Under the pieces are notes generated by a model. That model made no database searches. It was not told the DNA's origin and saw only the letters and a list, made by a program, of their open reading frames with translations. From IMG/VR virus record IMGVR_UViG_3300042558_004148, positions 62,001 through 126,000 of that record: 64,000 bases of DNA; one strand, written 5' to 3'. The stretch is from a virus. The position numbers were made by a program, and so were the translations under genes. Below, one piece after another: positions 26,167 through 57,346 of the stretch (positions are counted from its first letter, which is position 1; each line of letters starts with the position of its first letter).

Positions 26167-26223
26167 TAAATTACATGATGGAATTTATTACTATTAGGAG
26201 AGTATAATTATAAAAATTTGGGT

Positions 26224-37257: not shown

Positions 37258-40200
37258 ATGGCAGGAACACAAAATAGTATAAGTTCTTTATTAGCTCAGT
37301 TTCTGAGACTACAAAAAAATTCATTAGAGATTTTAAATGGTCTTAATGAGGCAGCAGTTTCAACAAATGATACTGTAAGCATAGAGGTACTTGACGAGGC
37401 TGGATTACCAAAGAATGCTAATATACCATCATATGGTTATTTAAGAGGTGAGATACAAAGAATAGACAATAATATAAAATCACTTGCCGGCATAGGAGAA
37501 AATTCATCGACGGTAAGAAATCCTGATGGAACATATTCGCAGGTATTTAAGGTCAATACACTAAAGGAACCATCCAGATTGGTCAATCTTACTGTTCCTA
37601 GCACATTTGCTGTTAAGGACAATTGGTTTTTTGAAAGTTTTCTAAGTCCATTACTTTATATAAACATAAATGTAACCGGCCAAATATCAGATAATGCTGA
37701 TAGAATAATGGTAAAGCGAATAATTGCTAATACGACTACCGATGCTCAGAAGGAATATTTTGATCTACAGCTTAAAGGTAGAAATGATTTATCGTATGAA
37801 TCATTTATACAACTATTAGATGATAATGGTATCGGATATTTCGTTGATGAGGATATTGTACAATTACCATTAAGAACAATAAGATACATTGGTGATTTTG
37901 GAGTTCTTAGTTACTATGACGATACTACGACAAGGAACGATCAATTTGGAAATCCGGTACAGCAAATAAGAAGAAATTATAAATTAGATAAGCTAAACTA
38001 TACTGACACCGTTACTAATGTTATAGACGGTAAAACATTAAATGTTAAGGATAAGGTTGCTACTCAGGACGGAAGTTTATATGAGATAACTTCAATAGAT
38101 AACGATCAGGCATCAATACAAGCTAAAAGAGTTTCTGGATATCAGCCAATTCAAATAGGCGCAAAATCGCTATCTATATCATCCACCGATTTTGGTGCTA
38201 GATTGGTACAGGTTAATGTGGGTTATAATGAGAGACAGGGAATTTTCTTTAAGACTATAGATGATAACTTTAATATAGTTAGTGCAACTTGGTCAACCGG
38301 TGTTGTTTTTTGGAGTAGCGAGCTACAAACTAAAAATTCTGATGGCGAAATAGTAACACTTGAGAATTATTATTTGAATGAGGTAGCTGATCTTGGAAAA
38401 GTTTTTCTTGGAGCTGCTAAAGAAAATAAAATAACTGCCATTCAGGGACTAAAACCTGATGCACCATTAGTTACTACGGATAGCTTTAAAGTTGTACAAA
38501 TAAATAGACAAGTAACACAATCAACCTCGATAAAGGTTGTTGATGATAAATTAAACCTTAAAACTTCTCTTAAGAGTGAGATTGACTCTCTAGATTCGGC
38601 TATTAATGATGCTAGACTTGAATTAAATACAGGATTAGCTGGTAATAACTCTGTTTCAGGAAGAAATTTCATAACAGCAGCAGATGATGCTGGTGATTTT
38701 GGTAGACGATCTGGTATATTTGGAAGCAATATTAGCACTTCTCCTAGAGGTGTAAATATACAATCCATAAGAGCAAATCTTAATAGTTTAATCGATGAGA
38801 GAACAAAAAAGGTTCAATTATATGCTTCTTTAGTTGATGAGGTAAGCGTGCTTGTTAAGGATGTGCCGCAGATAGTAACCCCACCAAAATATAGAGTAAG
38901 AGGATTTTGGCCAATACCTGCTCCAAAGGAAGATCCGCAGACTGGTAAACAACAGGTTATACAATTCTCAGTAAGATACAGATATCTTAGTGATTCCGGT
39001 GCTGCACAACCATCAGATCAGATAGAATTTGTTGATAATGATGGTCTAAGAAAAAATGCAGCTTTCTCCAACTGGACGGAATATAAGACTGAAATTAGAA
39101 AAAAAGTTTATGATTCTAATAAGGGAGTTTATGTTTGGGCTGATGAGATAACATCCGATTCTGATGTACAGAATATAAACCAATTGGATATAGCGATAAC
39201 CAAAGGCGAGAGGGTGGAAATACAAATATCCTCAATCTCGGAAGCTGGCTGGCCAGAAAATCCGCAAATATCCGATTATTCGGAATCAGTTACTGTAACA
39301 TTTCCTGATGATCTTAGTGTTAATGGAATTGCCGATACCTTGGTAACAAATAACGAGGATGCTGCTGTCGTTAAGGTTCAAAGAAATCTTGATGCACAGG
39401 GTTTACCTAGTCATCTATCCCAACAGTTTACTTCCGGAGATAAAACTTATTATCACGATGCAGTAGGAATTTCCAGTGGTTTTTATAATACAGCAGGGGG
39501 CGTTATAAATCTCTTTGACAAGCTGGTCGAATTACAGAATCAAGTTTCTCTATTGTCTGCACAGATAACTCAGGCAAAAGGAACATTGGAGGTTTATGTA
39601 GTGGATTCATCTAATAATAAAATAAAAGTCTCTAGAGGATCAGTTGTAAAAATAACTGCTGGATTCTTTAATGATATTTATAGTAATCCTTTAACAACTG
39701 ACGCTGGTAAAATAGCATCCTCTACGTATAGTATACAATTATTTAATGCTAAGGCTTCTGCCGTGGAACTTGCCTCGATTATACCTGGTGGTTTATCACA
39801 GAAGGCTCCTGCAACTATAGCACCTCAAACATATCCTACTGGATATGACGATAACCTTAGATATGGTGACTGTCCTATTTCCATAACATCTCTAACAATA
39901 GCTGATTCATCAATAGTTAATAATGCTTATTTTAGACAGGCTCCGCCTTTTGCTTCTGCTAATTCATATGCACAATACATATATCCTAGATATAAATCGG
40001 TTGGTTACGATCAGCAGCTATACAATGGTGGATCATTAGGATCATCTTTCTCCAGTAACTTCAGTGCTTCGTATGCTTATGATGGAGGTTTAAGTACAAC
40101 TAACTTCGGTATATCCGGTACTTATCCGCAAAATGGAACTTTGATGATTCCATACTCACCTTCCGTTACCCCAAGTACAGTTGCTGGTGCTACTGCATCC

Positions 40201-40893
40201 AATATATGGAACGGAACATTCTCAGCTGTTACAGGAGGAACCCCTAACGGAGGTGGTAATATATCGGAATTCTGTATATCTACCGCTCATCCATATTTAA
40301 TATCAATAGGTGCACAGTCTGCTTTTGATACGTACGAGAATCTCGTTAAGCCATATTCGGCTACGAACAAGATATATCCACCTTTTAGACATACGCAAAC
40401 TTTCTGGGGAGATACCAGTCTGGATTTCTATTGGGTTCAACAAACATATAGAGAACCTATAACATTTGCAGCGGGTGCTACCGCTTCCAGAGACGATAGA
40501 ATGTACCCTGATAAATTAGGATTTAATTCGAATGATGAATTCCTTATAGGTAAATATTCATGTGGCGCATATTTATATCTGGGACCAACAAATTCATCAT
40601 CTCTTCAGGTGGAGGGTACAACTTCGATATCTGTTAAGCCGCTATTAAATGGTGATTCCAATGCAATAAATGTTCCTCTAATTTTCCAATTCAGACCGGT
40701 AGATAAAGCAGGTTATATCGGAGGATGGAGAAAATCAGGTAATCTTTCAAATATAACATACACTAAAAAGATTGGTGTTGATATACAAGTTAAGAATGAG
40801 GATCAATTCTCATTTGATGTACAAATTACGGGATCGTATAAAAATGACACGTTGGTTGCTCCAAATTTTGATAGCGGTTTAACCTCAGTATAA
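37258..40893 (+). CDS. Large virion protein with FNIII-like module
   Basis: A 1211-residue protein. The N-terminus is helical (SISSLLAQFLRLQKNSLEIL), like a trimerisation or attachment helix. Residues about 541-684 resemble a fibronectin-III/Ig-like module of tail tip proteins: PKYRVRGFWPIPAPKED, IQFSVRYRYLSDSG, GERVEIQISSISEAGWP and YSESVTVTFP. The C-terminal part is Ser/Asn/Tyr/Gly-rich with a long run of beta strands and a hydrophobic final domain. There is no signal peptide. It is separated from its neighbours by 16 and 20 bases, so it is co-transcribed. It is probably a central baseplate or fibre component; the precise role is unknown. Confidence 0.65.
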   Translation: MAGTQNSISSLLAQFLRLQKNSLEILNGLNEAAVSTNDTVSIEVLDEAGLPKNANIPSYGYLRGEIQRIDNNIKSLAGIGENSSTVRNPDGTYSQVFKVNTLKEPSRLVNLTVPSTFAVKDNWFFESFLSPLLYININVTGQISDNADRIMVKRIIANTTTDAQKEYFDLQLKGRNDLSYESFIQLLDDNGIGYFVDEDIVQLPLRTIRYIGDFGVLSYYDDTTTRNDQFGNPVQQIRRNYKLDKLNYTDTVTNVIDGKTLNVKDKVATQDGSLYEITSIDNDQASIQAKRVSGYQPIQIGAKSLSISSTDFGARLVQVNVGYNERQGIFFKTIDDNFNIVSATWSTGVVFWSSELQTKNSDGEIVTLENYYLNEVADLGKVFLGAAKENKITAIQGLKPDAPLVTTDSFKVVQINRQVTQSTSIKVVDDKLNLKTSLKSEIDSLDSAINDARLELNTGLAGNNSVSGRNFITAADDAGDFGRRSGIFGSNISTSPRGVNIQSIRANLNSLIDERTKKVQLYASLVDEVSVLVKDVPQIVTPPKYRVRGFWPIPAPKEDPQTGKQQVIQFSVRYRYLSDSGAAQPSDQIEFVDNDGLRKNAAFSNWTEYKTEIRKKVYDSNKGVYVWADEITSDSDVQNINQLDIAITKGERVEIQISSISEAGWPENPQISDYSESVTVTFPDDLSVNGIADTLVTNNEDAAVVKVQRNLDAQGLPSHLSQQFTSGDKTYYHDAVGISSGFYNTAGGVINLFDKLVELQNQVSLLSAQITQAKGTLEVYVVDSSNNKIKVSRGSVVKITAGFFNDIYSNPLTTDAGKIASSTYSIQLFNAKASAVELASIIPGGLSQKAPATIAPQTYPTGYDDNLRYGDCPISITSLTIADSSIVNNAYFRQAPPFASANSYAQYIYPRYKSVGYDQQLYNGGSLGSSFSSNFSASYAYDGGLSTTNFGISGTYPQNGTLMIPYSPSVTPSTVAGATASNIWNGTFSAVTGGTPNGGGNISEFCISTAHPYLISIGAQSAFDTYENLVKPYSATNKIYPPFRHTQTFWGDTSLDFYWVQQTYREPITFAAGATASRDDRMYPDKLGFNSNDEFLIGKYSCGAYLYLGPTNSSSLQVEGTTSISVKPLLNGDSNAINVPLIFQFRPVDKAGYIGGWRKSGNLSNITYTKKIGVDIQVKNEDQFSFDVQITGSYKNDTLVAPNFDSGLTSV

Positions 40894-43900: not shown

Positions 43901-46382
43901 AGGAACGGACTCTAGAGGAAATTTATATAGATTAAATTCAACACCAGCCTTTTCACCAACTAACTTTTCGCCTAGTTTAGATAGGAACGAATCTGATTCC
44001 CGATACCTTACCCATGAGTGGCTAATATTAGAGAAGCCACCTAGAGATTTTCCGATAAGTGAGATGAAAAATCAGAATAGCTATTTACCAGGTATGGTTG
44101 ATCTAGATATGGCTAGAAGCTCTGATCCAGCGGATGCTCTGTATCTGTCGTCCGTATTTACTGTGGATCCTTCTGACTATTCACCAGAATATAGGGATCT
44201 AAGTTCATATACTAAGGAATTATTTACACCTTTTAGTTTTAATGAATCTAGTGGATATTATGAAACATTATTTAGGGGAATAAAAGTTGTATTGAAGAAA
44301 AGATCAAATTTATCAAATTCAAATGCCGATTCTCTTGATAAATATATTAGATTATACAGAGGTTATGAAGATTATAAATTCTCTGCTATTATTAGGGTTG
44401 TAGATGAGAATTCAACATCAATACAATCACCGGTATCTTATGAAATAATAGAGAATGAACAACAGAAATTTGTTTTGTTCGTATGTTACGTTCTTATTAA
44501 CGATTATAAGTCACAGGAGCTTGGTTATTCGGGATTGACCGGTGGAGATCCTATATTGGATTATACACTTTTATATTCCCTTAGTAATAAGGAGAAGTTA
44601 AATTATCCTCTTGTTAATAACGAACCATTTTATAAAATAGGTGACATCAAATTAAGTGCTGCATTGGACTTATCGCTATCATCTGGTAGTGTGGTAAATA
44701 CGACCGCTGTACCTGGCATAATTAATTCGATATTAAATCCTGATTATGATACTGACCTTAGAGAGGAAATAAACACAATATTCTCTCCCAATACTGCAGG
44801 TGCAACAGCTGGACCAAGTCCTATAGGTGCCGGTAGTTTCTATGTAAATTCCATAAATTCAACATATCCCTGGCCGATTGGCGTTGGACCTAGCTATATA
44901 GAATTTGGTAAAATTGCAACGGGTGGCGCGGAATATACATTTGATATACAATTCTCTGCATCTGATCCAGTCACAGTGCCAGTGGGGCCTTCTTCGGTTT
45001 ATAAAAATCAGCCGGTCTTTCAAGTTGAAGGAGGTGAGGAGTATTATAATTTCATATTAAAAAGAACATCAGCTGCTGATATATTAAGCAGAATAAACGG
45101 AAGTTCTCCCTATATAAAATATAAAACTTATTACTGGGATCCTGTTTTACTAACAACAAAAGAATCATTAAATTCATTTGAGTTGTATATGGAAAAACCA
45201 TCCAGGCTATATAAGGGTAATGGATCAAGAACAACCAAATTTTATGGTGGGCCTCAGACAATAGGTGAATCTGTTCCGACATCATATATAATACAACCTA
45301 ACCAGGACCTTCCGTCCTCCTTACTGAGATACTCTGGTGGATATTCACCTTTATTCAGAAAGGTTGTGTATTTTGATTATGATAAGACCGATACCATAAG
45401 CGGTGATAATAGTATAGATTTATCATTCAGAAACTGCAATTTCGCTCCTAATAAAGAATATTTTGGAATTCTTAGAAATCTTCCATTTACTAAGGTTGAT
45501 AAGGGCAATAATATATTAAGTCTGAGTAAAGATCTGCCTGAGGGTCCGGTATATCCATTGGTTGGCCAATCTCCAATATGGAAAAAGAATTTCAATATAT
45601 TCTCTTCAAGTTGGGATCCTGGATACTATGACCAATTCAATGGCCCAACCACATATAATCAGGTTGCTGGAACAAGAAGCATGAAGGAAAATAAATCTTT
45701 CCTTGCTTCCAAAATTATGAAAACCCCGGGTAACTTTGATTTCAGTAACTATATAACATTAGAGATATCGAGAACTTCCGGATCAACAAATATAAATGAT
45801 ATAAATAACGCAATACTTGGATATAGTAAACCAGTCCAGAATATATCTCCATCTGATTCAGGTATTGGTATAGGAAATGTTGGACCTTACCTATCTGGTG
45901 TTGATTATAATAAATTGGATATATCTATATTTCCGAATGCTGAAATTATATGGCAATATTTTCCATTGGTTAATAAAATAAGCGGTATAATTAGACTTGA
46001 TAGGATGTTGAGAAGATATCTTCTTAATTCTGGTATAAAACAAACGTTCATAGACAATATAATATCAGATTTTGGAGTGGGTAATCCTGATTCAATAGAC
46101 GATGATGTTAATGACTATATAGATCTTAACGTTTCCCCTCTATTTCAGGGAAATGTATTTGATCTTTTTGTTAATAAAACTTCTCAATCGTCCGGATCAC
46201 AAATAGTTGATTATGAGGTTAGAGGTGATATAAATCAATCGGAAAGATTTAAAATGGGATACTATCCCGATAGTAATTATAAATTAACTAGAAATACGGA
46301 TTTAATTTATAATTTTGAGTATAATCTGGAGAAAAGCTATAACTATTCAATATTATTTAACCTAGGAATTATTAAAATTTAA
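40914..46382 (+). CDS. Giant virion protein of 1822 residues
   Basis: The longest gene in the window. Not recognised. It is rich in Tyr, Ser, Asn, Asp and Gly throughout, with beta-strand/turn patterns such as FSVVRTNPKLTGNLRITVGS, LWINSEIPDYFVIFKVPGP and IWDNTSSYSVNDIVKYDGYY. The last resembles the carbohydrate-binding 'W-x-x-x-x-x-Y-x-x-G-D-x-V-x-Y-x-G-x-x-Y' module seen in chitinases and tail tips (about residues 648-680). No membrane segment or enzyme motif. A TATAAATA sequence at 40902-40909 lies too close to the ATG to be a convincing late promoter. Probably a tail-tip or fibre-associated protein spanning much of the baseplate. Confidence 0.65.
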   Translation: MAEAKLFDYNSSFSVVRTNPKLTGNLRITVGSNGSVSFNSMDANRILSNDRFKNFNITGENPFALDVYNFFDKGQLASDIIFQTARFTRGEFQAVNQFSEQYDFFYGSGASALADKNYNESFSYFAPLWINSEIPDYFVIFKVPGPLSYSYSDNQTIISDGIKYKLVQNYDSEVSFRISYGNDASGNPVYYSAGEIFNGSSLYSNYTIIEGSGIVVVFDELANIDLVDDVETLFKNKILPNATAIKTFDLTENSKIGKYIRSIFNDKKFKKSPVDVSWGPSSYTYFNGVSIKDGIYSRKGEILSDYFASDSSDSMIDFESYITSGFSRNGIISPNLLNLEFLFDDDDSDIYTINRYMGFYVSRNDLASLRLNGDFFYKYRNIEGNDDLPKPSRNSFGYYYDSTTYPITAESGIMLFYENGSGFLPGSNDTNILDSNKLYYITDKDSNFYSLSRSEFYGGSTGPNYGPYDYSTGLFSATGSTGSTSGNVVIQNKKTDLHNFTGTSNKVASIPAKNADSPGRAYCEVEFLKKSDLVNPIYFKLYWPNGSLYDGSEKYDLVESADLSAIIPWVDGSFYSTGNTHYFNAYGDDLSKIASSFSNIIKNIDQVTVESGVNLNSSVIRLRDSGTFGNDLYSISIFGNYSDFESRYKGIWDNTSSYSVNDIVKYDGYYYTTASIINAPSSGNFNLNPISAGWNKYDTFTYPGYVKINGIDAYEISGTINFTGGTRYSGNRLIFGSSYEGFVNVNDFVVTKTGKSRVMEVSKYTDEPVRDTQTNIVTGFDNFTYSRVAILEDEFAEVDLGSSNSFNSYKSVDLNIGVFSFFDMKEFDFDFFTSNYSYTPTAETYKYYQIQPGVTGSINNGIPYLVKRGQIIYNNVQYDQGSIFYGTGGITLFTSANPDQKDLIVFPAQYSTVTYNSSTTNYGSDIGYNVDLDAFNGFIGIQSLTPSSLNSSASKLEVFNRGKLSSEYDYLEENYTTSRANISRIVPYINKWAYTSGTDSRGNLYRLNSTPAFSPTNFSPSLDRNESDSRYLTHEWLILEKPPRDFPISEMKNQNSYLPGMVDLDMARSSDPADALYLSSVFTVDPSDYSPEYRDLSSYTKELFTPFSFNESSGYYETLFRGIKVVLKKRSNLSNSNADSLDKYIRLYRGYEDYKFSAIIRVVDENSTSIQSPVSYEIIENEQQKFVLFVCYVLINDYKSQELGYSGLTGGDPILDYTLLYSLSNKEKLNYPLVNNEPFYKIGDIKLSAALDLSLSSGSVVNTTAVPGIINSILNPDYDTDLREEINTIFSPNTAGATAGPSPIGAGSFYVNSINSTYPWPIGVGPSYIEFGKIATGGAEYTFDIQFSASDPVTVPVGPSSVYKNQPVFQVEGGEEYYNFILKRTSAADILSRINGSSPYIKYKTYYWDPVLLTTKESLNSFELYMEKPSRLYKGNGSRTTKFYGGPQTIGESVPTSYIIQPNQDLPSSLLRYSGGYSPLFRKVVYFDYDKTDTISGDNSIDLSFRNCNFAPNKEYFGILRNLPFTKVDKGNNILSLSKDLPEGPVYPLVGQSPIWKKNFNIFSSSWDPGYYDQFNGPTTYNQVAGTRSMKENKSFLASKIMKTPGNFDFSNYITLEISRTSGSTNINDINNAILGYSKPVQNISPSDSGIGIGNVGPYLSGVDYNKLDISIFPNAEIIWQYFPLVNKISGIIRLDRMLRRYLLNSGIKQTFIDNIISDFGVGNPDSIDDDVNDYIDLNVSPLFQGNVFDLFVNKTSQSSGSQIVDYEVRGDINQSERFKMGYYPDSNYKLTRNTDLIYNFEYNLEKSYNYSILFNLGIIKI

Positions 46383-46384
46383 TT

Positions 46385-47941
46385 ATGCCAAATATAAATA
46401 TACAATCTTTAGAATATTCGGACTCCCAATCGGAAATGTTCGATAAGGTAAATCTTAATTTTGATGAGATTATCGAAATACATGGGGGATCGCAAGGTAG
46501 GATAGGACCTACTGGTGGTGATGGAGCCATCGGTGATAGAGGTAAGCCTGGACCTACTGGAAATACAGGAGTCAGAGGAAATAGATGGTTTATTGATATT
46601 TCTCAGCCTTCCGGGCCAGGTGACACTGTTATTTATGGTGATTATTGGGTTAATAGAGATTCTGGTATTATTAATATATTTACTTCATTGGGATGGCAAC
46701 CTACTGGATATAGCTTATCCGACGGAGATTCCATATTTAAAAATTCGGGGTCCATATTCTCCACTGGTATTACCGGATCAGCAATATCATTAAATCAGAT
46801 AACACCATCCGATTATCTGGTCATAGTAGCCGATAAAACACCAGGTTCTGGGGTTTTAAATCAGAATCTAGCTAAATTTTTATTATCGACTGATACCACA
46901 GTAAATGATTCGCCAATATTGGAATTCTCAAAAACTAATATTGAGGATGGAAATATAGCTGACTATTCACAACATCCAATATTTAGATGGAATAATTTTA
47001 CTCCGACCGACGATGGCTTGGTATTAGAAATACCAGGGGGATCATTTATAATAGGAGCATCTGGTGGATCTGATATAAAATTCAATGAATTTATAATGAA
47101 TTCACCAGGTACAATATCATTTAATTATGGTACTACCTCCGGATCAGGAATATACTCCACTGGTGGATTTGAGATTAATGCTCCCAGCGGACAATTTAGT
47201 ATACTGAGTTCAAATATAAGCATTACCGGGGGTACATCCTCAATATCAGCTCCGGTTCAATTAAATCCAAGCTTACCTGATGGTGTTTTTAGTACTTATT
47301 TATATAGCGGTGGAACCGCACCAGCACTAAGAACTACCAGATCTGGAGATACCTTTTCTACTCTATCCCATTCCGTTTATAATATTAGTTTGGAGTCATC
47401 AAATGGAGGACAAAGAGACTTCTTTATAGATACAAGGGGTAAAATTAGAACCAAGAAAACTGAAACAGGTATATCATATGCTAATACTACCACTGATGTA
47501 ACGAGTGCTATAACATCTCCATATACAGCAAATACTAACTGGTATATGTTAACCAGGACAGGAACTCCGATAGATTCATCGGTCCTACAGGATGGTAACA
47601 CTATGGTCATAAACCCAGTTGTTCCTACCAGTGGATTTATAGGGATTGGTATTTATACAGGATCCGATTATTCATTAGGTACTACTGGTGGTATTAATAG
47701 AGGTGAATCTATAGATATAAATGTTCTTGTAAGTCCCAATGATCTGGTATATCCCAGTAACGGAATAACATTTATAGGAAAGGGAACTACCTCCGGTAAC
47801 ATTACTAGCTTGGTTGAACTTTCTAATATAGCATCCTCATTGGATCTAACCATAGCTAGAGGTGTTACCGGAGATTATATAACGGTTTTTTATAGATCAT
47901 ATGGAATTAATGGCGGATCTGGAGGATCTTTTACTATTTGA
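46385..47941 (+). CDS. Collagen-like fibre paralogue 1
   Basis: A 518-residue protein, first of three consecutive paralogues. Residues 1-34 form the shared N-terminal module (SEMFDKVNLNFDEIIEIHGG). Residues 38-66 are Gly-X-Y collagen-like triplets (GRIGPTGGDGAIGDRGKPG). Residues 67-95 carry the shared W...QPxG...DYW motif. A conserved 'LLSTD...ILEFSKT...HPIFRWN' block follows. The C-terminal part is Gly/Ser/Thr-rich and diverges from its siblings. Collagen-like stretches in phage fibres trimerise. It starts two bases after the preceding gene's stop. Predicted short tail fibre or adhesin. Confidence 0.75.
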   Translation: MPNINIQSLEYSDSQSEMFDKVNLNFDEIIEIHGGSQGRIGPTGGDGAIGDRGKPGPTGNTGVRGNRWFIDISQPSGPGDTVIYGDYWVNRDSGIINIFTSLGWQPTGYSLSDGDSIFKNSGSIFSTGITGSAISLNQITPSDYLVIVADKTPGSGVLNQNLAKFLLSTDTTVNDSPILEFSKTNIEDGNIADYSQHPIFRWNNFTPTDDGLVLEIPGGSFIIGASGGSDIKFNEFIMNSPGTISFNYGTTSGSGIYSTGGFEINAPSGQFSILSSNISITGGTSSISAPVQLNPSLPDGVFSTYLYSGGTAPALRTTRSGDTFSTLSHSVYNISLESSNGGQRDFFIDTRGKIRTKKTETGISYANTTTDVTSAITSPYTANTNWYMLTRTGTPIDSSVLQDGNTMVINPVVPTSGFIGIGIYTGSDYSLGTTGGINRGESIDINVLVSPNDLVYPSNGITFIGKGTTSGNITSLVELSNIASSLDLTIARGVTGDYITVFYRSYGINGGSGGSFTI

Positions 47942-47968
47942 TATATAGTGTAATTACCATTTAATAAT

Positions 47969-49639
47969 ATGACAGAGTTACAGTTACTTAGAATAGAAGA
48001 AGGGGATTCTCAGAATAATATAATTGATAAAATTAATTATAATTTTACCGGTATAATTGACTTCGGTGGAGGCCCTTATGGAAAGATAGGTAAAATTGGA
48101 CCTGATGGAAATAAGGGAGCTACTGGCCCGGTGGGTTCATACGGGGATCTCGGAAGGAGAGGTAGTATATGGAACATTGGTCCGACACAACCCCAAGGAA
48201 ATAACGTATATTTATCAGATTATTGGATGAACACTGATGAATTTAATAATATATACGAGTTCAACGGAAATTCTTGGGCATTGAGTGGCATAAACGTAAG
48301 ATCCAGGGATTTATTTTATGTTGATGGTCCAGTAATAACATCATCGGGCAACAGTACTAAAAGGGGTTATTACATATCATCTTCTCTTCCCTTAAGTTAT
48401 ACAACAGTAATTAGTGACGTCCAGATAACAAGTGGATCAAGCACCAGTTCCCCTAATGCGATACCAAATCCGCAGTATAGTAAATTCGTTATATCCACCG
48501 ATGGACTTAATCCGAATAAGAATATACTGGAGTTTAGTAAACACCAGTATTCTTCGAATTTAGCATTTACACAAAAAACACCCAGATTTTATTGGACTCA
48601 GGGAGCGACATCAGCAAGAGGAAATTATGGACTTAGCTTGCTTAGTGGATATAGATTCGATATAAACACTTCTTCCGATTTATATATTGCTTCCATTTCG
48701 TCAGGTATTAATTTAACCTCAACTGGAATCAATATGACAACGCCTAGTACTTTACCATTCGGTATAAATGCAACATCGAGAATTACATTTAATTTTTCGA
48801 CAGGTTCAGCCATATTCTCGACCAGTAATATAAGTTTCTCAGGTGGATTATTTTCTTTTAAAACCCCGATATATTCTTCTACCCAAAGTAATAGTGTTAT
48901 TCCAACGATGAGGTTGGCTTCAGCGTCGGCTAATACTGGAAATATTAGATATGTTTATCCATCCACTGGAACTAAGCTAATAAATCTATTTAGAAGTGTT
49001 CAATCTGGATCTATTATAAACTATGTAGATGGGTCTGGATTATTTTATTTTAATAAAAGAGTTAATTCCATACAGAATGCACAATCTGTAACTGCAACAA
49101 CGACATCGGTAGTTGCAGGAACACAGATAGATTGGGTTACAGTTCTTCCCTCTATCTCATTAACGTCAACCGGCAATTATGTATGGTCGAATAATGGAAT
49201 GGATTTAGTTGTAACAAAACCAACATCTACTGCAAACCAGAGAGGATTATGTTTATGGACTCCTGCCACTGGTGGAGCACCTGGTGGAAATGGTGGGTGG
49301 CTAAAATTATTGGAAAATGGTGAATCGATAAACTTTAGAGTTCATAGTGGCAATTCAGGAACTTCTAGTACCGATAATTTTAAATTCATTGGACTAAATA
49401 CTTCAAATAATCAGGGAGATGCACCTAATAATACACCATCTTCAAACTATTCATTTATTAATTTATCTGCATCTAATGGGGTTGGAGCATCTACAATAGA
49501 CATAACAATAGTTAATATACAAGGAACCGGATCAACTGCGGGTAACAGAAGATGGTTCAAAGTATATTATTCAGCATGGGGAGGTGGATTAACAACAAAC
49601 CAATGTGGTGTACTAACAACATATAATGCAACAGCCTAA
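47969..49639 (+). CDS. Collagen-like fibre paralogue 2
   Basis: A 556-residue paralogue of its neighbours on both sides. The N-terminal module (NNIIDKINYNFTGIIDFGGG) is followed by collagen-like triplets at 38-66 (GKIGKIGPDGNKGATGPVG) and the QPQGNN...DYW motif. The shared 'FVISTDGLNPNKNILEFSKH...PRFYWTQ' block follows. The C-terminal half is Ser/Thr/Asn-rich beta sequence of its own type, with a Gly-rich stretch (PATGGAPGGNGGWLKLL). The three copies differ most at their tips, as expected for adhesins under diversifying pressure. Confidence 0.75.
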   Translation: MTELQLLRIEEGDSQNNIIDKINYNFTGIIDFGGGPYGKIGKIGPDGNKGATGPVGSYGDLGRRGSIWNIGPTQPQGNNVYLSDYWMNTDEFNNIYEFNGNSWALSGINVRSRDLFYVDGPVITSSGNSTKRGYYISSSLPLSYTTVISDVQITSGSSTSSPNAIPNPQYSKFVISTDGLNPNKNILEFSKHQYSSNLAFTQKTPRFYWTQGATSARGNYGLSLLSGYRFDINTSSDLYIASISSGINLTSTGINMTTPSTLPFGINATSRITFNFSTGSAIFSTSNISFSGGLFSFKTPIYSSTQSNSVIPTMRLASASANTGNIRYVYPSTGTKLINLFRSVQSGSIINYVDGSGLFYFNKRVNSIQNAQSVTATTTSVVAGTQIDWVTVLPSISLTSTGNYVWSNNGMDLVVTKPTSTANQRGLCLWTPATGGAPGGNGGWLKLLENGESINFRVHSGNSGTSSTDNFKFIGLNTSNNQGDAPNNTPSSNYSFINLSASNGVGASTIDITIVNIQGTGSTAGNRRWFKVYYSAWGGGLTTNQCGVLTTYNATA

Positions 49640-49641
49640 AT

Positions 49642-51753
49642 ATGCACTTCAATACTAAATATATTTTTCAAGGTGACTCAAAAAGTGAAGCCTTAGCTAA
49701 GATTAATTACAACTTTGATCAGATAGTTTCTTTTGGTGTTGGTCCTAATGGTCACCAGGGTGCTAAAGGAGCTACCGGAATATATGGGCCAGCTGGATTC
49801 AAGGGAATTAGCGGAACTACTGGTAATAGAGCAAGTAAATGGTATAGCCAATCAGCTCAACCTGCCGGAAGTCAACAATATGATTTATGGATAGATTCCA
49901 ATACTGCGGACGGAGTTGTTAATCAGAAGGGCTCAACCGGTTCTTGGACCGATACTGGATATAGACTTTTTAGTTCACTATACTTTAAATCTTATGAGTT
50001 TATACAGGGACCGGCCGGGGTAACAGATAAATATGTCATTGGTCTAAATAATGTCGGTGCATCAGCAGCATATACCAACCTGGTAATAAGTGATTCTGAT
50101 ATGAGTATATCTGATATAAATCCAAACAACTCCAAGGTATTAATTTCTACTGATGATCAGATAAATTTGCCAGTGATGGGATTTTCTAAGTCCGGTGCTA
50201 TATCGAACTCGAGACCATCTTTCTATTGGAAAAATACTGGAATTCTGGGTGATTTAGAATTCAGATCAGGTGGAATATTTAGGATAAGCTCGTATCTTGA
50301 TACTTCTATAAATACCGGCACTTCAAGATTAAATATATCAGGTAACAGAATAAATTCAACCTCCCTTAATTATAGCTTATCTGGTGTAGGTGATTTTACT
50401 ATAGCATCGAATAACACGATTGGTGCAGGAACTTTCTTTAATGTTAATGCATCAAATTTGGTCTTCAATCAGCTAGCTTATGATCATCTTGGTTCAATTG
50501 TAATATCCGCTGCAACTGGATCTTATTTATTAAATAATACACCTACAACGGCATTTGCGGGAAGTAATATCGAGCTGGAAGTAAGTAGCTTAAATAACTC
50601 GATATTTGAATTTACCGGTATAGGTGGAGGTAATATACTTTCTGCTAAACCTCAGGGAACAGTTTCAAGTGGTAATTTTTCGCAAACTATATTTGGGTCA
50701 ACGGGAGGAGCCACTGGTGGAACTGGTGGTCCATATTCATATCATGTCAGAAGACTACAGCAAATAAGACAAAACACCATAAATGTAAATAATGTTACCT
50801 TATATCGTGCTACCTTTGGCTCAACGGCAAATCTAACAAATGTTTTTGATATAAGAAATCTCACATTTTGGGAATCTGATGTTATAGTGGTTACTCCGCT
50901 TTCCTATACTTCGGCCGGCGGTGTTTATTTATATGTTCCAGCCGATTATACGCAGAGCATATATCCAATATATTCCTATAATAGATCCAGAACATTTAGA
51001 GTGATGCTAGATAATACTGAAACCAATCCAACGGGTAGAAATATACTTGGTCTTATTGTAGACTTTAGTCAATTTATTTCCAGTATAGGTACGGTGGTAA
51101 AAGTTTACGTCCAATTCCCTTCGACAACATGTCAATATGTTGATCTTACCTGGTTAGCATACGCTAATGCAAATAACGCTAATACCAGGTTATTCTGGAA
51201 AACATGCGATGGCAGGGGAGGATATTTAGATCTGACTAATCTATATTCAGTTGGTGTAGAACCACCTCCATCTAGTGGAACTGCTGGGGGTACCGTTCCT
51301 ACTAGCGGTGGATCTTCTCCGGGTGGAGGTGGATGTCCGACTCCTGATATGCCTATTATGATAAGTCCGGAATTAAGTATATTTGCTGGTGATCTTCAAA
51401 TCGGGGATGAAATATATACCATACATGAAATTAGTAACGAATGGGGTTATTATAAAGTCTCATATATAGAAACTACGATACAGCCTATAGTTTCTGTAAA
51501 TATAGGAGGAAAAATATTAACTGTTTCTGATACGCATAAATTTTTATTAAGTTCGGGAGATTATGTTTCTGTTAGTGAAATTGAAATAGGATCCGAAATA
51601 AAAACGATGAACGGAACTTCAATACTTGAATCAGTGCATGCTATTGGAAATGGTGAGGTACTAAAAATAGAAATAGAAGATGCTCATACATATGTTATTG
51701 ATAGTATCATATCTCATAACAAGATAGTAAGATCATTAACAATTGAACCATAA
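49642..51753 (+). CDS. Collagen-like fibre paralogue 3 with Hint domain
   Basis: A 703-residue third paralogue: shared N-terminal module (EALAKINYNFDQIVSFGVG), Gly-X-Y triplets at 37-62, QPAGS...DLW motif and 'VLISTD...PVMGFSK...PSFYW' block. After its own beta-rich middle, a Gly/Ser/Pro linker (residues about 540-564) leads to a Hint domain from Cys565 (CPTPDMPIMISPEL) through LQIGDEIYT, SDTHKFLLSS (His632) and HTYVIDSIISHNK (His692-Asn693). The Thr of the usual T-x-x-H is Ser here. Ten residues (KIVRSLTIEP) follow Asn693. The first is Lys, not Cys/Ser/Thr, so full splicing is not expected; cleavage is possible. Confidence 0.8.
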   Translation: MHFNTKYIFQGDSKSEALAKINYNFDQIVSFGVGPNGHQGAKGATGIYGPAGFKGISGTTGNRASKWYSQSAQPAGSQQYDLWIDSNTADGVVNQKGSTGSWTDTGYRLFSSLYFKSYEFIQGPAGVTDKYVIGLNNVGASAAYTNLVISDSDMSISDINPNNSKVLISTDDQINLPVMGFSKSGAISNSRPSFYWKNTGILGDLEFRSGGIFRISSYLDTSINTGTSRLNISGNRINSTSLNYSLSGVGDFTIASNNTIGAGTFFNVNASNLVFNQLAYDHLGSIVISAATGSYLLNNTPTTAFAGSNIELEVSSLNNSIFEFTGIGGGNILSAKPQGTVSSGNFSQTIFGSTGGATGGTGGPYSYHVRRLQQIRQNTINVNNVTLYRATFGSTANLTNVFDIRNLTFWESDVIVVTPLSYTSAGGVYLYVPADYTQSIYPIYSYNRSRTFRVMLDNTETNPTGRNILGLIVDFSQFISSIGTVVKVYVQFPSTTCQYVDLTWLAYANANNANTRLFWKTCDGRGGYLDLTNLYSVGVEPPPSSGTAGGTVPTSGGSSPGGGGCPTPDMPIMISPELSIFAGDLQIGDEIYTIHEISNEWGYYKVSYIETTIQPIVSVNIGGKILTVSDTHKFLLSSGDYVSVSEIEIGSEIKTMNGTSILESVHAIGNGEVLKIEIEDAHTYVIDSIISHNKIVRSLTIEP

Positions 51754-51771
51754 ATATAAATGTAATATAAT

Positions 51772-52035
51772 ATGATAAGCTTAACAACAGAAGAAAAATC
51801 AGAAATACTCAATCTATCCAGAAATTTCGTTGAAATTCACCAGGAGATAGTGGGAGTAGAAAAAGAGATTAAAAGATTGGAGGAGTTATCTTCCGAATTA
51901 ATTGCCAAATTGGAAGATTGCAGGGAAAGAGAATGTGATTTCACACAGTCACTTTCTTCTAAATATGGCGAGGGTTCATTGGACGCTATTAATTTAGCAT
52001 GGAAAAAAGAAGAATTAGTAAATGAAGTACTTTAG
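51772..52035 (+). CDS. Small coiled-coil protein
   Basis: An 87-residue, acidic, almost wholly helical protein. Heptad-like runs (VEIHQEIVGVEKEIKRLEEL, ELIAKLEDCRERECDFTQSL) suggest a coiled coil. It ends KKEELVNEVL. It overlaps the following membrane protein by 14 bases, so the two are translationally coupled and may act together. It has no signal peptide and no recognised family. A structural or lysis-accessory role is possible. Confidence 0.65.
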   Translation: MISLTTEEKSEILNLSRNFVEIHQEIVGVEKEIKRLEELSSELIAKLEDCRERECDFTQSLSSKYGEGSLDAINLAWKKEELVNEVL

Positions 52036-52867
52036 CAAGGAGACGGTTTCAAAAGTTGGTAATATAGTTACCAGCAGATTTTTTATGCTAGCTATGCTGG
52101 TTGTATTGGTTCTGTTATTACTTAGACAATGTGGCGAAGCAGATAATGCTAAAGCTGAAGCATTGAGAGAGCATAATAATTATCTAGCATCACTGGATAG
52201 TGTAAGAACAATCAAAAATGACATGGGTCATTTAATACAGGAGAAAGCAACATATGAATTAAAAGCTTCTGAGCTTTCTGCGGAGCAAAAGAATTTAATT
52301 CAGCAACTAGGACTTAAATCAAATGGTAGGGGTGATACTCCAAACTCAGTAATCAATATGATAGCCGAGATTAGAGATAGCATTAATGTAGCATCCACTA
52401 TTGTAAAGGACCCAAATGGAGCAGAATCAATAACATTTGTACATAATCCGCAGATGCCAGGGAATAATAAATTAAAAATCGATGGTAAGACTCCATATGT
52501 TGTGGAAATACGTGTAGATCCAACAGATTCTACCAAGTATATAGCATCCGTTATACCAGGTCTTACCTCATTAATAATGGAGCAGAATATAGATATAACA
52601 ACTGGAATCTATAGAGACCCAAAAACTAAAAGAATGATGACGAGGGTTAGTACAACATATCCGGGTCTTACTTTTAATGATATAAATTCATTTGACATAA
52701 CGGATAGTCCAGATACCAGAAAAGCGCTAAAAGCTGCTAGAAAGGAATTTGGGTTTGGTGCTCAATTGGGATACGGTCTTTCTGGATCAAATTCCGGTAT
52801 AACACCTGGGTTTTATATAGGTATCGGTTTACAATATTCACCTAAGTTCTTACAATTCGGAAAATAA
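52022..52867 (+). CDS. Membrane-anchored protein with coiled coil and beta C-terminus
   Basis: A 281-residue protein with one transmembrane segment at residues 19-35 (FFMLAMLVVLVLLLLRQ). A long helical coiled-coil-like region (residues 41-96, AEALREHNNYLASLDSVRT and onwards) follows. After that come a soluble beta domain and a C-terminal end, FGAQLGYGLSGSNSGITPGF then YIGIGLQYSPKFLQFG, typical of outer-membrane-like beta strands. One hydrophobic anchor, a long helix and a terminal beta element would let it span the periplasm. This suggests a spanin-like lysis protein, inferred only. Its Cys37 lies after the membrane segment without a clear lipobox. Confidence 0.6.
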   Translation: MKYFSKETVSKVGNIVTSRFFMLAMLVVLVLLLLRQCGEADNAKAEALREHNNYLASLDSVRTIKNDMGHLIQEKATYELKASELSAEQKNLIQQLGLKSNGRGDTPNSVINMIAEIRDSINVASTIVKDPNGAESITFVHNPQMPGNNKLKIDGKTPYVVEIRVDPTDSTKYIASVIPGLTSLIMEQNIDITTGIYRDPKTKRMMTRVSTTYPGLTFNDINSFDITDSPDTRKALKAARKEFGFGAQLGYGLSGSNSGITPGFYIGIGLQYSPKFLQFGK

Positions 52868-52875
52868 TATAAAAA

Positions 52876-55191
52876 ATGGCATTTACAACTACATCTAAAT
52901 TTGTTCAGATAACACCATACCTCCTAATGGAGTATATGTACGCTGATGAACCAACCCCGGAGACATATTTTGTTAATAACGGACCTGTTACTGTGGGGTA
53001 CGATAAGTTGGTAAATGACTACATGAATAATAACGTGCAGGTATTTAATAGCGAATCTGATTATTCAATAACACATAATACCACGGAGAATAGTGTGGTG
53101 AGAATAGGGGAAAGCTCATTTGTTACTTTAGATTCGAATCTGATAATACCTTTTAATGACTATAGTGATGAATTAACTAATACTGTTGATCTACCTATAA
53201 CATTTCCATCGAACATACAGGTTGTTTACGATACTGTTAGATATCACATTAGGGCCGGTTATAACCTAAATAATATAGATGGTATTATAATGGGAATAGA
53301 ATACCAGGATCAGAACTTGGAGTTTGTTACGGTTTCACAAATCCTTATAAAAAAAGGAACGGAGCAGGACTATTATTTGAATCCTAGCCCAGTTACCATA
53401 GGATCTAATATCTATGATAAGTATTTTGAAATAAAAGTACCAAATTTAAAAGATATGGGTGATAAGTATTTAACTGCATCAAATGTTTTTAAACCACAGA
53501 CACTCGCATCACTAATAAGCTCCAGTGGAGAAGGATTTATATACGGTTCCCCCATCAGAATAAGCGCTTGGCAAATTCAGAATACCGTTGATTTTAATGG
53601 ATATCAAAGGTATAATTCTTCCCTGATATCTATTTTATCATTAGAGCAGGAGGATCCATTTTCTAATATAGGAGCAACAATAAAAGAATCTGACCAGGGT
53701 CAATTCTTTGAATATTATGCAACCGATAATGAGGGATTTATAGAGGACTTTGTTCTTTTCCAGAATTCAATTGGTAATTCATACTATATAAGTCATGAAA
53801 TAGAAGTTCTTGAACAAATTGGGGCAGCTTTTATACAGACGTCACAATTTCAATCAATACAAACTACCGCATACGATCTACCTAATTATTATAGACCCAT
53901 AGTTAGAAATGCTGGTGTTGCTGCTAGTTTTACGTTGAGATATACCATGTCGCTGGTTAACAATGTTAATCAAAATAGAACAATAAGAATATCAACATAT
54001 ACATCATCCAATCCTTCACAATGGGGAACTAATATAACACCAATATCACTTAGTAATTTTCCACAGGTTCAGAAGATCTATAATAGGATATATTCGCAGG
54101 CTGATATTAAATTGGGTAATAATAATCAGAATAAGATAAGGGAAATAATTAAATACAGCAATGTTTTTATAGATCAAAATTATGTTACTGCAACTATAAA
54201 TAATCTAAATTTCGTTGATAATACTTTGAGTAATATTGATGGGGCAGGAAATAGTACAGCATATGGTACGGGAAAACTAACCATAGCGATATCTCCTTTT
54301 GATAATTTCTATAAATTTAAGTTCATTAAAAGTGGTCCATCTGGAGATCCAGTTGCAATAGATCTTAGTAGCTCCGGTAAATTTAATTTATCTTTTGTTA
54401 ATCCAAAGGGTAATAAAATACAGATACCATCATTGGACGATAAAGGTATAGCTAATCCATTATCTGGAGAATTAGCATTTAAGATAGATGAATCTATATC
54501 CATGCAGATATTACAGATAACCGATAGAAGATTTTTTATAACTAATGGTACCACAGTAAGTCCAGCAACAGGTTCTGTTACTGGAAGTGAGACAATAAAG
54601 GTTTCATCAGGGGTAAGCAGTAATGTTCTGGAGAAGAGAATAGAAAGCGTAGTCGCAACAAGGAGAGACGAGAATCAATCGATATCAAGTGTGGGTAATA
54701 GCGTAAGTATAGGAGGATCTACCTTAGCCAGTACCGTTGGTAATACCAGCTCCGTTATGTATTGGGGTTATTGGAAAAAAGATGGGGAAGCTGACTTTGT
54801 AACGGGTCCAACTGCTGCTCCTGCTCCTATCATAACAACGTCAGGAAGCGGAACAAGTGGAACTGGAATAATAGGTACCTTGGCCCCTGCCAGATCAATA
54901 GTTAAATCCATACCTCCTGCATTTATTACATCCGGACAGGCCTCGGCTATAACAACTCCGAGAGCAAATACATCGCAGTCATTGAGGGGTAATATTTTGA
55001 TCTCTGCTTTAAGCGCTGAAATGGCTGGATATAAAGCAATAGGTTGGGCTGATTCGACAGTAATGCAATATTTCTTAAATCCAGGTAAACCCGGATATAT
55101 CAAATATCCTAATTTAACTAAGTCTGATTTTGTTAAAGCTGCTGATGGTATACTTTCACCAGCTAGCATATCTTCAATTTCAGGGCAATAA
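52876..55191 (+). CDS. Large virion protein
   Basis: A 771-residue protein not recognised by sequence. The start (AFTTTSKFVQITPYLLMEYM) and many Tyr/Asn/Ser-rich strands mark it as a virion protein. Internal features include VDFNGYQRYNSSLISILSLE, then QEDPFSNIGATIKESDQ, and a Gly/Ser/Thr-rich section around residues 570-640. The Ala/Gly/Thr/Pro-rich linker near 655-680 (ITTSGSGTSGTGIIGTLAPA) is probably flexible. No membrane segment or enzyme motif. It sits right after the membrane protein and before the tube-like gene, so a tail or head-tail role is plausible but not shown. Confidence 0.65.
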   Translation: MAFTTTSKFVQITPYLLMEYMYADEPTPETYFVNNGPVTVGYDKLVNDYMNNNVQVFNSESDYSITHNTTENSVVRIGESSFVTLDSNLIIPFNDYSDELTNTVDLPITFPSNIQVVYDTVRYHIRAGYNLNNIDGIIMGIEYQDQNLEFVTVSQILIKKGTEQDYYLNPSPVTIGSNIYDKYFEIKVPNLKDMGDKYLTASNVFKPQTLASLISSSGEGFIYGSPIRISAWQIQNTVDFNGYQRYNSSLISILSLEQEDPFSNIGATIKESDQGQFFEYYATDNEGFIEDFVLFQNSIGNSYYISHEIEVLEQIGAAFIQTSQFQSIQTTAYDLPNYYRPIVRNAGVAASFTLRYTMSLVNNVNQNRTIRISTYTSSNPSQWGTNITPISLSNFPQVQKIYNRIYSQADIKLGNNNQNKIREIIKYSNVFIDQNYVTATINNLNFVDNTLSNIDGAGNSTAYGTGKLTIAISPFDNFYKFKFIKSGPSGDPVAIDLSSSGKFNLSFVNPKGNKIQIPSLDDKGIANPLSGELAFKIDESISMQILQITDRRFFITNGTTVSPATGSVTGSETIKVSSGVSSNVLEKRIESVVATRRDENQSISSVGNSVSIGGSTLASTVGNTSSVMYWGYWKKDGEADFVTGPTAAPAPIITTSGSGTSGTGIIGTLAPARSIVKSIPPAFITSGQASAITTPRANTSQSLRGNILISALSAEMAGYKAIGWADSTVMQYFLNPGKPGYIKYPNLTKSDFVKAADGILSPASISSISGQ

Positions 55192-55209
55192 TAAAAATAT
55201 AGATTAGAA

Positions 55210-55758
55210 ATGTTATTAAATTCAAAGCAGAATAGTTTTTATTTCGTATTTCCTAAGGGCTTCTTTCCGGAGAAGGTTATTAATAAATATCTTCCCTATA
55301 TAAAGAAACAACCTATTCCTTATGATACTATACAAAATTATGTAAATAGTACGATACAATCAATAGGATTCCCTGGAATGTCAATAGATTCAGTTGAACA
55401 AGTTAGACCATTAGGTAAAAAAATAACATATAAAAGTTCAACCCCAGTTCAGGAACTATTTTCAAAGGATTTCAGTGTTCAGTTTAGATTGGTTGATGGG
55501 TTCATTAATTATTTTATAATGATGGACACGATTCTGCATTTTTTAAATTTTGCAAACGAACAAATATTTATACAGAATTTACCAATAAGGATCATGGACA
55601 GCGATGGAAACATAGTGGTCTCAGTTACTTTTAAGGAGGTTACGCTTACCTCATTTTCCGAATTTGAATTAAACTATACATCAAATGCTGCACAGGATGC
55701 AACATTTAATGTTGGATTCAAAGCTAACTATATAGATATAGTTTTTGAATCGAATTAA
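55210..55758 (+). CDS. Tail tube-like virion protein candidate
   Basis: A 182-residue protein. The middle has FSVQFRLVDGFINYFIMMDT, followed by ILHFLNFANEQIFIQNLPIR and a final strand set (VSVTFKEVTLTSFSEFELNY, then ATFNVGFKANYIDIVF). Such 'strand-helix-strand...' sequence with Asp-Gly-Asn turns is compatible with the tube or tube-junction fold of T4 gp19/gp54. The length (gp19 is 163 residues) is similar. Homology was not demonstrated; it could also be another small tail protein. It lies after the 771-residue structural gene and before the replication-type genes. Confidence 0.5.
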   Translation: MLLNSKQNSFYFVFPKGFFPEKVINKYLPYIKKQPIPYDTIQNYVNSTIQSIGFPGMSIDSVEQVRPLGKKITYKSSTPVQELFSKDFSVQFRLVDGFINYFIMMDTILHFLNFANEQIFIQNLPIRIMDSDGNIVVSVTFKEVTLTSFSEFELNYTSNAAQDATFNVGFKANYIDIVFESN

Positions 55759-55784
55759 GATATATACATAAATAAAAACAAGAT

Positions 55785-56021
55785 ATGAAGACATTCACAG
55801 ATCTAAAAAAGATTAACGAAATGAAATACGGTCAGCCACTTTACAGTGAAAAAGACCACATGAAGAACTTATTAGTTGCAGCTTCTGGTAACGACCAGAG
55901 AGTTTTAAACGATATTGTTGATTGTTTAACAGAGGATCAGATGAAGAAGTGCTTCGATAAACTTTCCAAAGTTTATAATTATACAGGTAGCACTGGACAG
56001 AAGATCGCTCCTAGTATATAA
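55785..56021 (+). CDS. Small hypothetical protein
   Basis: A 78-residue protein beginning MKTFTDLKKINEMKYG, followed by KDHMKNLLVAASGNDQRVLN and a predicted helical C-terminal half. The start recalls the 'M-K-x-F' N-termini of other proteins in the window, but no real CTS-type cleavage pattern is clear. No enzyme motif or membrane segment. It precedes the RuvC-like gene by three bases and is probably co-transcribed with it. Confidence 0.6.
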   Translation: MKTFTDLKKINEMKYGQPLYSEKDHMKNLLVAASGNDQRVLNDIVDCLTEDQMKKCFDKLSKVYNYTGSTGQKIAPSI

Positions 56022-56024
56022 TAT

Positions 56025-56732
56025 ATGAATTTAGTCGGAATAGACTTTTCTATAAACTCCCCCGCTTTCTGTTGTTTGGTTGATGGCAAATACACCTGGG
56101 GATCTATAACAAGATCAGATAGAAGTGAGGAATCCCTTTCTAAGAACATCAAGAAACCATATCACATATTAAGTTGTGATGATGCTTTCAAATTGATATT
56201 CTTAGAAAAAAAGGATCTTCCCGAAAATTATTCGGAAAGAGAAAGAATTAAGATAACCTATTTCTTAGATATAGTTGATACCCTATGGAAATCTATAATA
56301 TCTATAATGGGAAAAGAACCATTCCATGTTGCAATGGAGGGTTTAAGTTTTTCGTCTAATGGTAATTCGCTAATTGATATTTCAATGGCAACTGCACTGT
56401 TAAGGGAAAGAATAATTAATGATATTGGCGTTGATAACTTTCATGTATTCTCACCAACATCAATTAAAAAATATGCGGTAAAGGGAAATGCTAAGAAGGA
56501 CGAACTTTACCATGCGTTATGTAATTATATCGAGGATGAAACAAATTTATTCATCTTCTCTAGAATACTAGAAAGCAATAAGGAAGAATGGATAACCGGT
56601 AAAAAGGTTGTTAATAAACCAATCGACGATATTGTTGACGCAACTTGGATTAATTTATATTTAAAGGAAGAATTAAAGGAATTTTATGGAATTAAAGGAA
56701 ATATTAAAAACGCATCTACAGGAAGCCTCTAG
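56025..56732 (+). CDS. RuvC-like Holliday junction nuclease
   Basis: A 235-residue protein with the RNase H-like fold of RuvC-type resolvases. It has Asp7 in NLVGIDFSINSP, Glu105 in HVAMEGLSFS, an Ala/Leu helix ATALLRERI, and the acidic C-terminal motif DDIVDATW (residues 201-208, Asp201/202 and Asp205). These are the catalytic acidic residues expected for metal-dependent cutting. T4 uses endonuclease VII (gp49) for this task; a RuvC-type enzyme is an alternative solution in many other phages. It would resolve branched DNA before packaging. Its last 47 bases overlap the next gene. Confidence 0.8.
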   Translation: MNLVGIDFSINSPAFCCLVDGKYTWGSITRSDRSEESLSKNIKKPYHILSCDDAFKLIFLEKKDLPENYSERERIKITYFLDIVDTLWKSIISIMGKEPFHVAMEGLSFSSNGNSLIDISMATALLRERIINDIGVDNFHVFSPTSIKKYAVKGNAKKDELYHALCNYIEDETNLFIFSRILESNKEEWITGKKVVNKPIDDIVDATWINLYLKEELKEFYGIKGNIKNASTGSL

Positions 56733-57285
56733 CATTCTAAATGACTTCATTAATAACGACGAGTATCTAAACTCCGTAACAGAGGCAGCCGAAACAATCA
56801 TCACATCATTAAGTAACGGTAATAAAATAATTTCTGCAGGAAATGGCGGGTCCATGTGCGATGCTATGCATTTTGCAGAGGAACTTAGCGGGAGGTATCG
56901 TGAGAACAGGGAAGCTTTAGCCGCTGTTTCCATATCTGATCCTAGTCACATAACTTGTGTTGGAAATGATTATGGCTTCGACCAGATTTTTTCTAGATAT
57001 ATTGAAGCTGTTGGAAACGAAGGCGACGTATTTTTCGGTATAACAACTTCAGGAAATTCTAATAATATCACTCGTGCTCTGGTTACTGCCAAGAGAATGG
57101 GGATGAAGGTTGTCATACTCACATCAGACCGCCCAGAAAGCGACGTAAGAATGCTTTTTAGCCACCTTATCGATAATATCATACTAACACCAGTAAATAA
57201 ATATGCGGATCGTACGCAAGAACTACATATCAAAATAATACATTCCCTGATTGATATGATAGAGCGCCAATTGGGAATGAAATAA
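56686..57285 (+). CDS. gmhA: Phosphoheptose isomerase-like SIS-domain protein
   Basis: A 199-residue SIS-fold protein of the sedoheptulose-7-phosphate isomerase (GmhA) type, which makes D-glycero-D-manno-heptose 7-phosphate for LPS core or other heptose sugars. Family features are AGNGGSMCDAMHFAEELSGR (residues 51-70), with His62 and Glu65/66; ITTSGNSNNITRAL; and a C-terminal TQELHIKIIHSLIDMIE with Gln178 and His181. These match the zinc-binding and catalytic set of GmhA. The length is standard (about 190-200). The gene starts inside the RuvC-like gene. Why a phage carries it is open: modifying surface sugar, or supplying heptose to a glycosyltransferase such as the one at 26224. Confidence 0.9.
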   Translation: MELKEILKTHLQEASSILNDFINNDEYLNSVTEAAETIITSLSNGNKIISAGNGGSMCDAMHFAEELSGRYRENREALAAVSISDPSHITCVGNDYGFDQIFSRYIEAVGNEGDVFFGITTSGNSNNITRALVTAKRMGMKVVILTSDRPESDVRMLFSHLIDNIILTPVNKYADRTQELHIKIIHSLIDMIERQLGMK

Positions 57286-57346
57286 AATCAATAAAGAGAA
57301 ACAAAAAGTAAACAAAAAAGTAAAATTTAAAATTAAAAGAAAAATT
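57286..57346 (+). promoter_or_regulatory. Unstructured A-rich leader of gp32
   Basis: The 61 bases before the gp32 start have only about eight G or C, with repeated AAAAAGTAAA-like units and no Shine-Dalgarno. In T4, gp32 represses its own translation by binding an unstructured AT-rich leader. This tract has the properties such a target would need, so autoregulation is a reasonable inference. Confidence 0.5.

Follow-up and report, generated by a model that had tools for sequence, protein, structure and literature searches.

A Hint domain capping a collagen-like phage fibre belongs to a family with a lysine kept just past its terminal asparagine

The closest described systems to the domain analysed here are the type A BILs, which carry no nucleophile at +1, form a thioester, cyclise their terminal Asn, mostly cleave, and can also ligate through the freed amine (PMC4031507). 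They are found in variable, surface-type host proteins (PMC4031507; PMC7765530). In Tetrahymena, BIL2 forms an isopeptide bond to the side-chain (epsilon) amine of a Lys (PMC8616854). Hint domains reported from phages, as far as a search of the open-access literature returned them, belong to terminase, RNR or other inteins; the same search gave no description of the Hint family treated below or of its Lys, which is no proof of absence. Here we compare with these systems a Hint domain at the end of a phage fibre.

The window is a stretch of 64,000 nucleotides (positions 62,001 to 126,000 of IMG/VR record IMGVR_UViG_3300042558_004148) from a 373 kb tailed phage. Its ORF 49642-51753 on the plus strand encodes a fibre protein of 703 aa (Table 1), in which a weak collagen match (E 0.012) covers residues ~33-62. 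Towards the C-terminus, SPGGGG is followed by C565PTPDMPIM, block B reads SDTH, block F reads EDAHTY, and SHN693 leads into K694IVRSLTIEP. A preliminary description of this DNA had placed the Hint start at Cys565 and its end at Asn693, with Lys at +1 and ten residues following, all of which is right on the sequence. It had also assigned the domain to only one of three fibre paralogues, and the N-termini of the three are indeed paralogous (31% over ~210 aa), with the Hint on the third only. The surrounding region (window 45300-57700) is syntenic with locus L005, and the fibre genes are its most diverged stretch, with identity down to 71% against 90-97% beyond.

Table 1. Features of the window related to the two Hint proteins (window coordinates)
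Feature	Position	Strand	Basis or remark
Second, distantly related Hint protein, 399 aa	24967..26166	+	Hint C249-N398 (25711-26160), then K399 and stop; Thr-rich linkers
Structural protein, 1211 aa, without Hint here	37258..40893	+	Homologues in two other viral contigs have a C-terminal core Hint
Fibre paralogue 1, without Hint	46385..47941	+	
Fibre paralogue 2, without Hint	47969..49639	+	
Fibre body, residues 1-530, which includes the collagen-like Gly-X-Y stretch	49642..51231	+	Collagen match, tail fibre PHROGs, 39 body relatives
Pro/Ser/Gly-rich linker, residues 531-564, GGGG at end	51232..51333	+	Sequence; like linkers flank Hint in relatives
Hint domain Cys565-Asn693, 129 aa, core family	51334..51720	+	Alignment, AF2 model, structure and profile searches, Pfam on relatives
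Lys694, +1 after Asn693	51721..51723	+	Every family member has Lys at +1, +2 or +3
Short fast-changing tail IVRSLTIEP past Lys694	51724..51750	+	dN/dS ~0.5 on 10 codons

By its modelled fold, the C-terminal domain is unambiguously a member of the Hint superfamily. An AF2 model from a 30-sequence alignment of relatives reached a pLDDT of 90, and comparison with the PDB by Foldseek and VIA-align gave Z scores of 15-20 to inteins and BILs, so that the fold and boundaries read earlier from the letters hold. The top structural neighbour, with Z 20.0 over 138 residues at an rmsd of 2.0, is BIL2 of Tetrahymena BUBL1; the neighbours also include mini-inteins and the C. thermocellum BIL (PDB 2lwy, Z 19.3), which is the best PDB match by sequence profile as well (E 1.1e-10). 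Pfam, NCBIfam and PHROGs did not detect the Hint when run on the single 703-aa fibre. In the 30 relatives, Intein_splicing (PF14890) matches 27 (best E 2.6e-10) and PT-HINT (PF07591) matches 21, both at E<=0.1. A chance resemblance is excluded, no row of the 30-sequence family alignment departing from Cys1, the block B His, AHTY or SHN, and the dN/dS values of the Hint (0.06 and 0.11) indicate purifying selection. Position 4 of block F, an Asp in class 1 inteins, is Lys, Arg, His, Ser, Val or another residue in the motifs of the family. The Ser for Thr in block B that had been remarked upon is present, but it is the family norm (S69 in at least 90% of the alignment rows) and hence not unusual. 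Between blocks A and B lies a family-specific His-Glu pair (H35-E36 in the window row of alignment A2), the His invariant and the Glu in at least 90% of rows.

According to the alignments, what marks the family throughout is a conserved Lys following the terminal Asn, a feature that the preliminary description overlooked. Scans of viral contigs yielded 39 non-redundant core Hint members that differ by more than ~15%. Counted from the terminal Asn, the first Lys stands at +1 in 23 of them, at +2 in 15 and at +3 in one, and thus in all 39, although these sequences share ancestry and are not independent events, which makes repeated shifts between +1 and +2 the better argument. Cys, Ser or Thr is found at +1 in none of the 39, which makes splicing as a class 1 intein unlikely; the earlier remark that a Lys after Asn693 favours cleavage over splicing is supported to that extent. 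Past the Lys the sequence is unconserved, and from +3 on Lys accounts for 2.8% of residues. Since the profile includes the +1 column, its bias was checked with a DNA pattern (E-D/N-A-H-T-Y...H-N) that fixes nothing after HN. This pattern found Lys at +1/+2 in 28 of 29 core Hints and in 4 of 46 other Hints or inteins, against Cys, Ser or Thr in 0/29 and 35/46, respectively (core versus others, Fisher p 3e-15); the four non-core sequences with Lys (L039, L040, L107 and L119) are themselves mini-Hints from viral contigs. A conserved DNA motif in place of a conserved residue was considered and ruled out, since the Lys codons are mixed and both AAA and AAG are in use.

The Hint tree implies some nine moves of the Lys from +1 to +2 or back, four of which well-supported branches force, and no loss of it. 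For example, the sisters L044 and L049 read HN-IKANTSDG and HN-KGPSPNDP. A first scan of genome contigs gave no match, and a second led to myxobacterial, Enterococcus and Streptomyces loci. Myxobacterial (pro)phage members retrieved with the same profile read HN-VKQ, HN-LKPRD, HN-ATKL and the like, always with Lys by +3, and bacterial CF-type or pretoxin-like Hints from that profile have I, E, Q, N, G, T or S there, L271 with its Lys being the exception. The Lys is allowed at +1, +2 and even +3, often behind a hydrophobic residue, which points to conservation of its side chain and not of its backbone amine.

Measured against the described systems, this family, known from sequence, shares with type A BILs such as that of C. 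thermocellum the Hint fold, Cys1, the block B His, a C-terminal His-Asn and the lack of a +1 Cys, Ser or Thr, and the C-terminal slot of the fibre is variable, like the hosts of those domains. Unlike them, it has Lys at +1 to +3, the near-invariant H35-E36 pair and hosts that are phage virion proteins. BIL2 of T. thermophila BUBL1 (6y75/6tmm) also lacks Asp at position 4 of block F, but its acceptor Lys lies in a flanking domain, whereas the Lys of the fibre family abuts the terminal Asn with a C-flank as short as one residue; moreover, the BUBL flanks are ubiquitin-like domains, where the window Hint has a collagen-like fibre before it and a tail of ten residues behind. Class 1 mini-inteins (gp41-1, DnaB) have the same fold and blocks A, B, F and G, but the fibre Hint differs from them in the absence of a +1 Cys, Ser or Thr and of the block F Asp at position 4, in its short C-flank and in its non-conserved host. 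Two functional exteins, as in class 1, are not seen in the fibre, where ten residues follow the Hint and Hint-less orthologues end before it. The sterol-recognition region of Hedgehog Hog domains is likewise absent, the fibre ending ten residues past Asn693, and the ORF has no PT-HINT toxin domain downstream of the Hint.

Judged from its distribution, the core Hint family is mobile. Its hosts are virion proteins without other similarity to each other, including the fibre, homologues of the structural ORF 37258-40893, large cyanophage-like structural proteins, a tape-measure-like protein and others; these host types (fibre, baseplate-like, tape-measure-like, cyanophage-like structural) are what we take them to be from reading the sequences. 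L010 and L012, for example, are 31-33% identical to the window's structural protein over its full length and carry a C-terminal Hint in addition. In relatives, the domain stands at the N-terminus (MA before the Cys in L198), within Pro/Gly linkers or at the C-terminus, and in L042 it lies within a seemingly continuous Pro-rich linker, between PPRPDPPRP and KRPPRPDPPP. The acquisition by one fibre claimed at the outset is supported by the C-terminal slot of 27 distinct fibre-body orthologues, which holds the core Hint in 6, a CF-type Hint in 5 (with HNK in four of these five), a KIIC-type domain in 1 and neither in 15, and the fibre-body tree requires at least seven changes of this slot. The sisters L288 and L314 differ in the slot only. 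Where L288 has the Hint, the L314 orthologue ends in a different domain (GKIICNLLYRQGYLPKEIWEADEKFG...). Between the window and L005, dS is 0.37 for the Hint and 1.06 for the fibre body, and this smaller number of silent changes in the Hint suggests that the module was recently exchanged or converted between the two. Two further arrangements were observed among relatives. In L014 and L196 the Hint is followed by a short C-terminal stretch that looks like the beginning of an intramolecular chaperone (SDLRLKKNIRPI; SDFQLKTNIMII), and L183:4510-6873 has a tandem Hint-like pair, in which the second member, past HNKYTTGGGGG, begins CVALESF and ends LHHNVPINEQNEMEKK.

Our reading of the C-terminal 139 residues, which we regard as an evenly balanced call, is that of a type-A-BIL-like Hint cap, predicted to be catalytically intact and to remove itself, with the Lys as a possible acyl acceptor. 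Some self-processing of the fibre is, in our estimate, slightly on the probable side, and the use of Lys as the acyl acceptor is doubtful. Cys565 would attack the carbonyl of Gly564 (N-S acyl shift) and place the fibre body on a thioester; this would be resolved by the side-chain amine of Lys694 or by water, and cyclisation of Asn693 would let the Hint leave. The mature fibre would then comprise residues 1-564, either alone or with the 10-residue tail held by an isopeptide bond through Lys694. A truncated product that stops near residue 564 is plausible, given that most Hint-less orthologues are 560-605 aa long and the window fibre minus its Hint would stop at 564. Such a cap may serve the timing of fibre assembly, the masking of the tip or the cross-linking of chains. 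In favour of self-removal, the residues for the first steps are all present in the window Hint. Against it, 3 of the 39 core members have Pro at -1, a residue that usually hinders the N-S acyl shift, and the block F His has been lost in a subgroup of the myxobacterial sequences, which suggests that core members are not all equally active. Moreover, where the C-extein is a single residue (HNK-stop) or the N-extein only two (L198), splicing would bring no obvious gain.

A self-removing cap has to be weighed against several other readings. The domain might cleave itself at both its N- and its C-terminus in the ordinary manner of type A BILs, using Cys565 and Asn693, with the thioester hydrolysed and the Lys kept for another reason such as its charge near the scissile bond or the anchoring of the C-terminal strand; we think this possible rather than probable. 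Published type A BILs mostly cleave and do so without a +1 nucleophile (PMC4031507; PMC7765530), the fold and motifs of the fibre Hint fit, and the Lys could act by charge and not as a nucleophile. However, ordinary cleavage does not predict a Lys kept at +1, +2 or +3 amid varying downstream residues, and the bacterial CF-type and PT-HINT-like Hints found with the same profile are mostly without it. Quite unlikely, in our judgement, is a stable plug at the fibre tip that processes nothing, an exchangeable ornament comparable to Ig-like domains that perhaps binds a receptor or partner. The swapping of the orthologue slot among two Hint types, the unrelated KIIC-type domain, other extensions and nothing at all would suit such a plug, as would the N-terminal, internal or C-terminal placement on virion proteins, but the invariance of Cys1, the block B His and SHN in so diverse a family is unexpected if catalysis has been lost.

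Splicing would be the third possibility: the fibre Hint might be a mini-intein that, once its Asn has cyclised, splices through the free alpha-amine and that moves as a selfish element from one structural gene to another. Its position within an apparently single Pro-rich linker in several relatives (such as L042), its patchy distribution and the low dS relative to the body in the comparison with L005 are all as expected for such an element. We nevertheless consider it very improbable, given that there is neither a +1 nucleophile nor an endonuclease, that 18 of the 39 members have no more than 18 residues after the Asn and hence little to splice to, and that the Lys is often at +2, so its alpha-amine is not the common feature.

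A wider extension of the self-removing cap, to a phage-wide class of Hints in which the Lys side chain just past the terminal Asn would act as acyl acceptor and form isopeptide bonds on virion proteins independently of ATP, is unlikely. On this reading, the Lys of one chain in a trimeric fibre might take the thioester of another, so that the tip would be covalently locked. If the Lys were catalytic, these domains would be the phage equivalent of the ATP-independent, isopeptide-forming Hints that have so far been described at a polyubiquitin locus of a ciliate, and their substrates would be fibre tips, baseplates and tape-measure-like proteins. This would explain the frequent occurrence of intein-like domains on phage particle proteins that are unable to splice classically; the annotated fibre C-termini of such phages would be wrong, and a new ligation tool might be gained.

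The same phage encodes a second Hint protein, for which the Hint call rests on weak Pfam matches (E 0.0025 and 0.004), motifs and profile comparison; AF2, run on 14 near-identical sequences only, gave a pLDDT of 38. All complete close copies of this Hint end in HNK-stop, on proteins of 288-1442 aa, and the HNK-stop cassette recurs at the C-terminus in many viral contigs (L205-L231) besides the window. A BLAST-style search with one window Hint did not retrieve the other, and a profile alignment of the two has 22% identity. A recent common origin, which had been raised earlier, is thereby ruled out, and the comparison places the two in different subfamilies, as independent domains and not recent duplicates; the feature common to both is the HN-Lys ending. 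The claim that two Hint proteins in one phage are independent thus stands, but the combination is not unusual, being found in at least three other phage or prophage loci (L158/L117, L044 and a Pyxidicoccus prophage). Phage NCTB also has proteins annotated 'intein domain' and 'large intein domain' near each other. Alexandraviruses (Dickeya AD1, Erwinia Alexandra) resemble the fibre in that a tail gene of theirs has a Hint close to its C-terminal end; unlike the fibre Hint, theirs are kin to the window's other Hint, with Thr at +1 and an 11-residue Lys-rich tail.

The second Hint protein and the adjacent structural protein (20152-24912) both contain long Thr runs (TTTTTT). The ORF after them, 26218-27192, has a TTG start and an HDSD motif and is glycosyltransferase-like, with no Pfam match; together with the Thr runs it possibly suggests glycosylation of the virion. 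At the far side of the fibre genes, ORF 56686-57285 looks by eye like a sugar isomerase of the GmhA/SIS type and adjoins DNA-replication-like genes.
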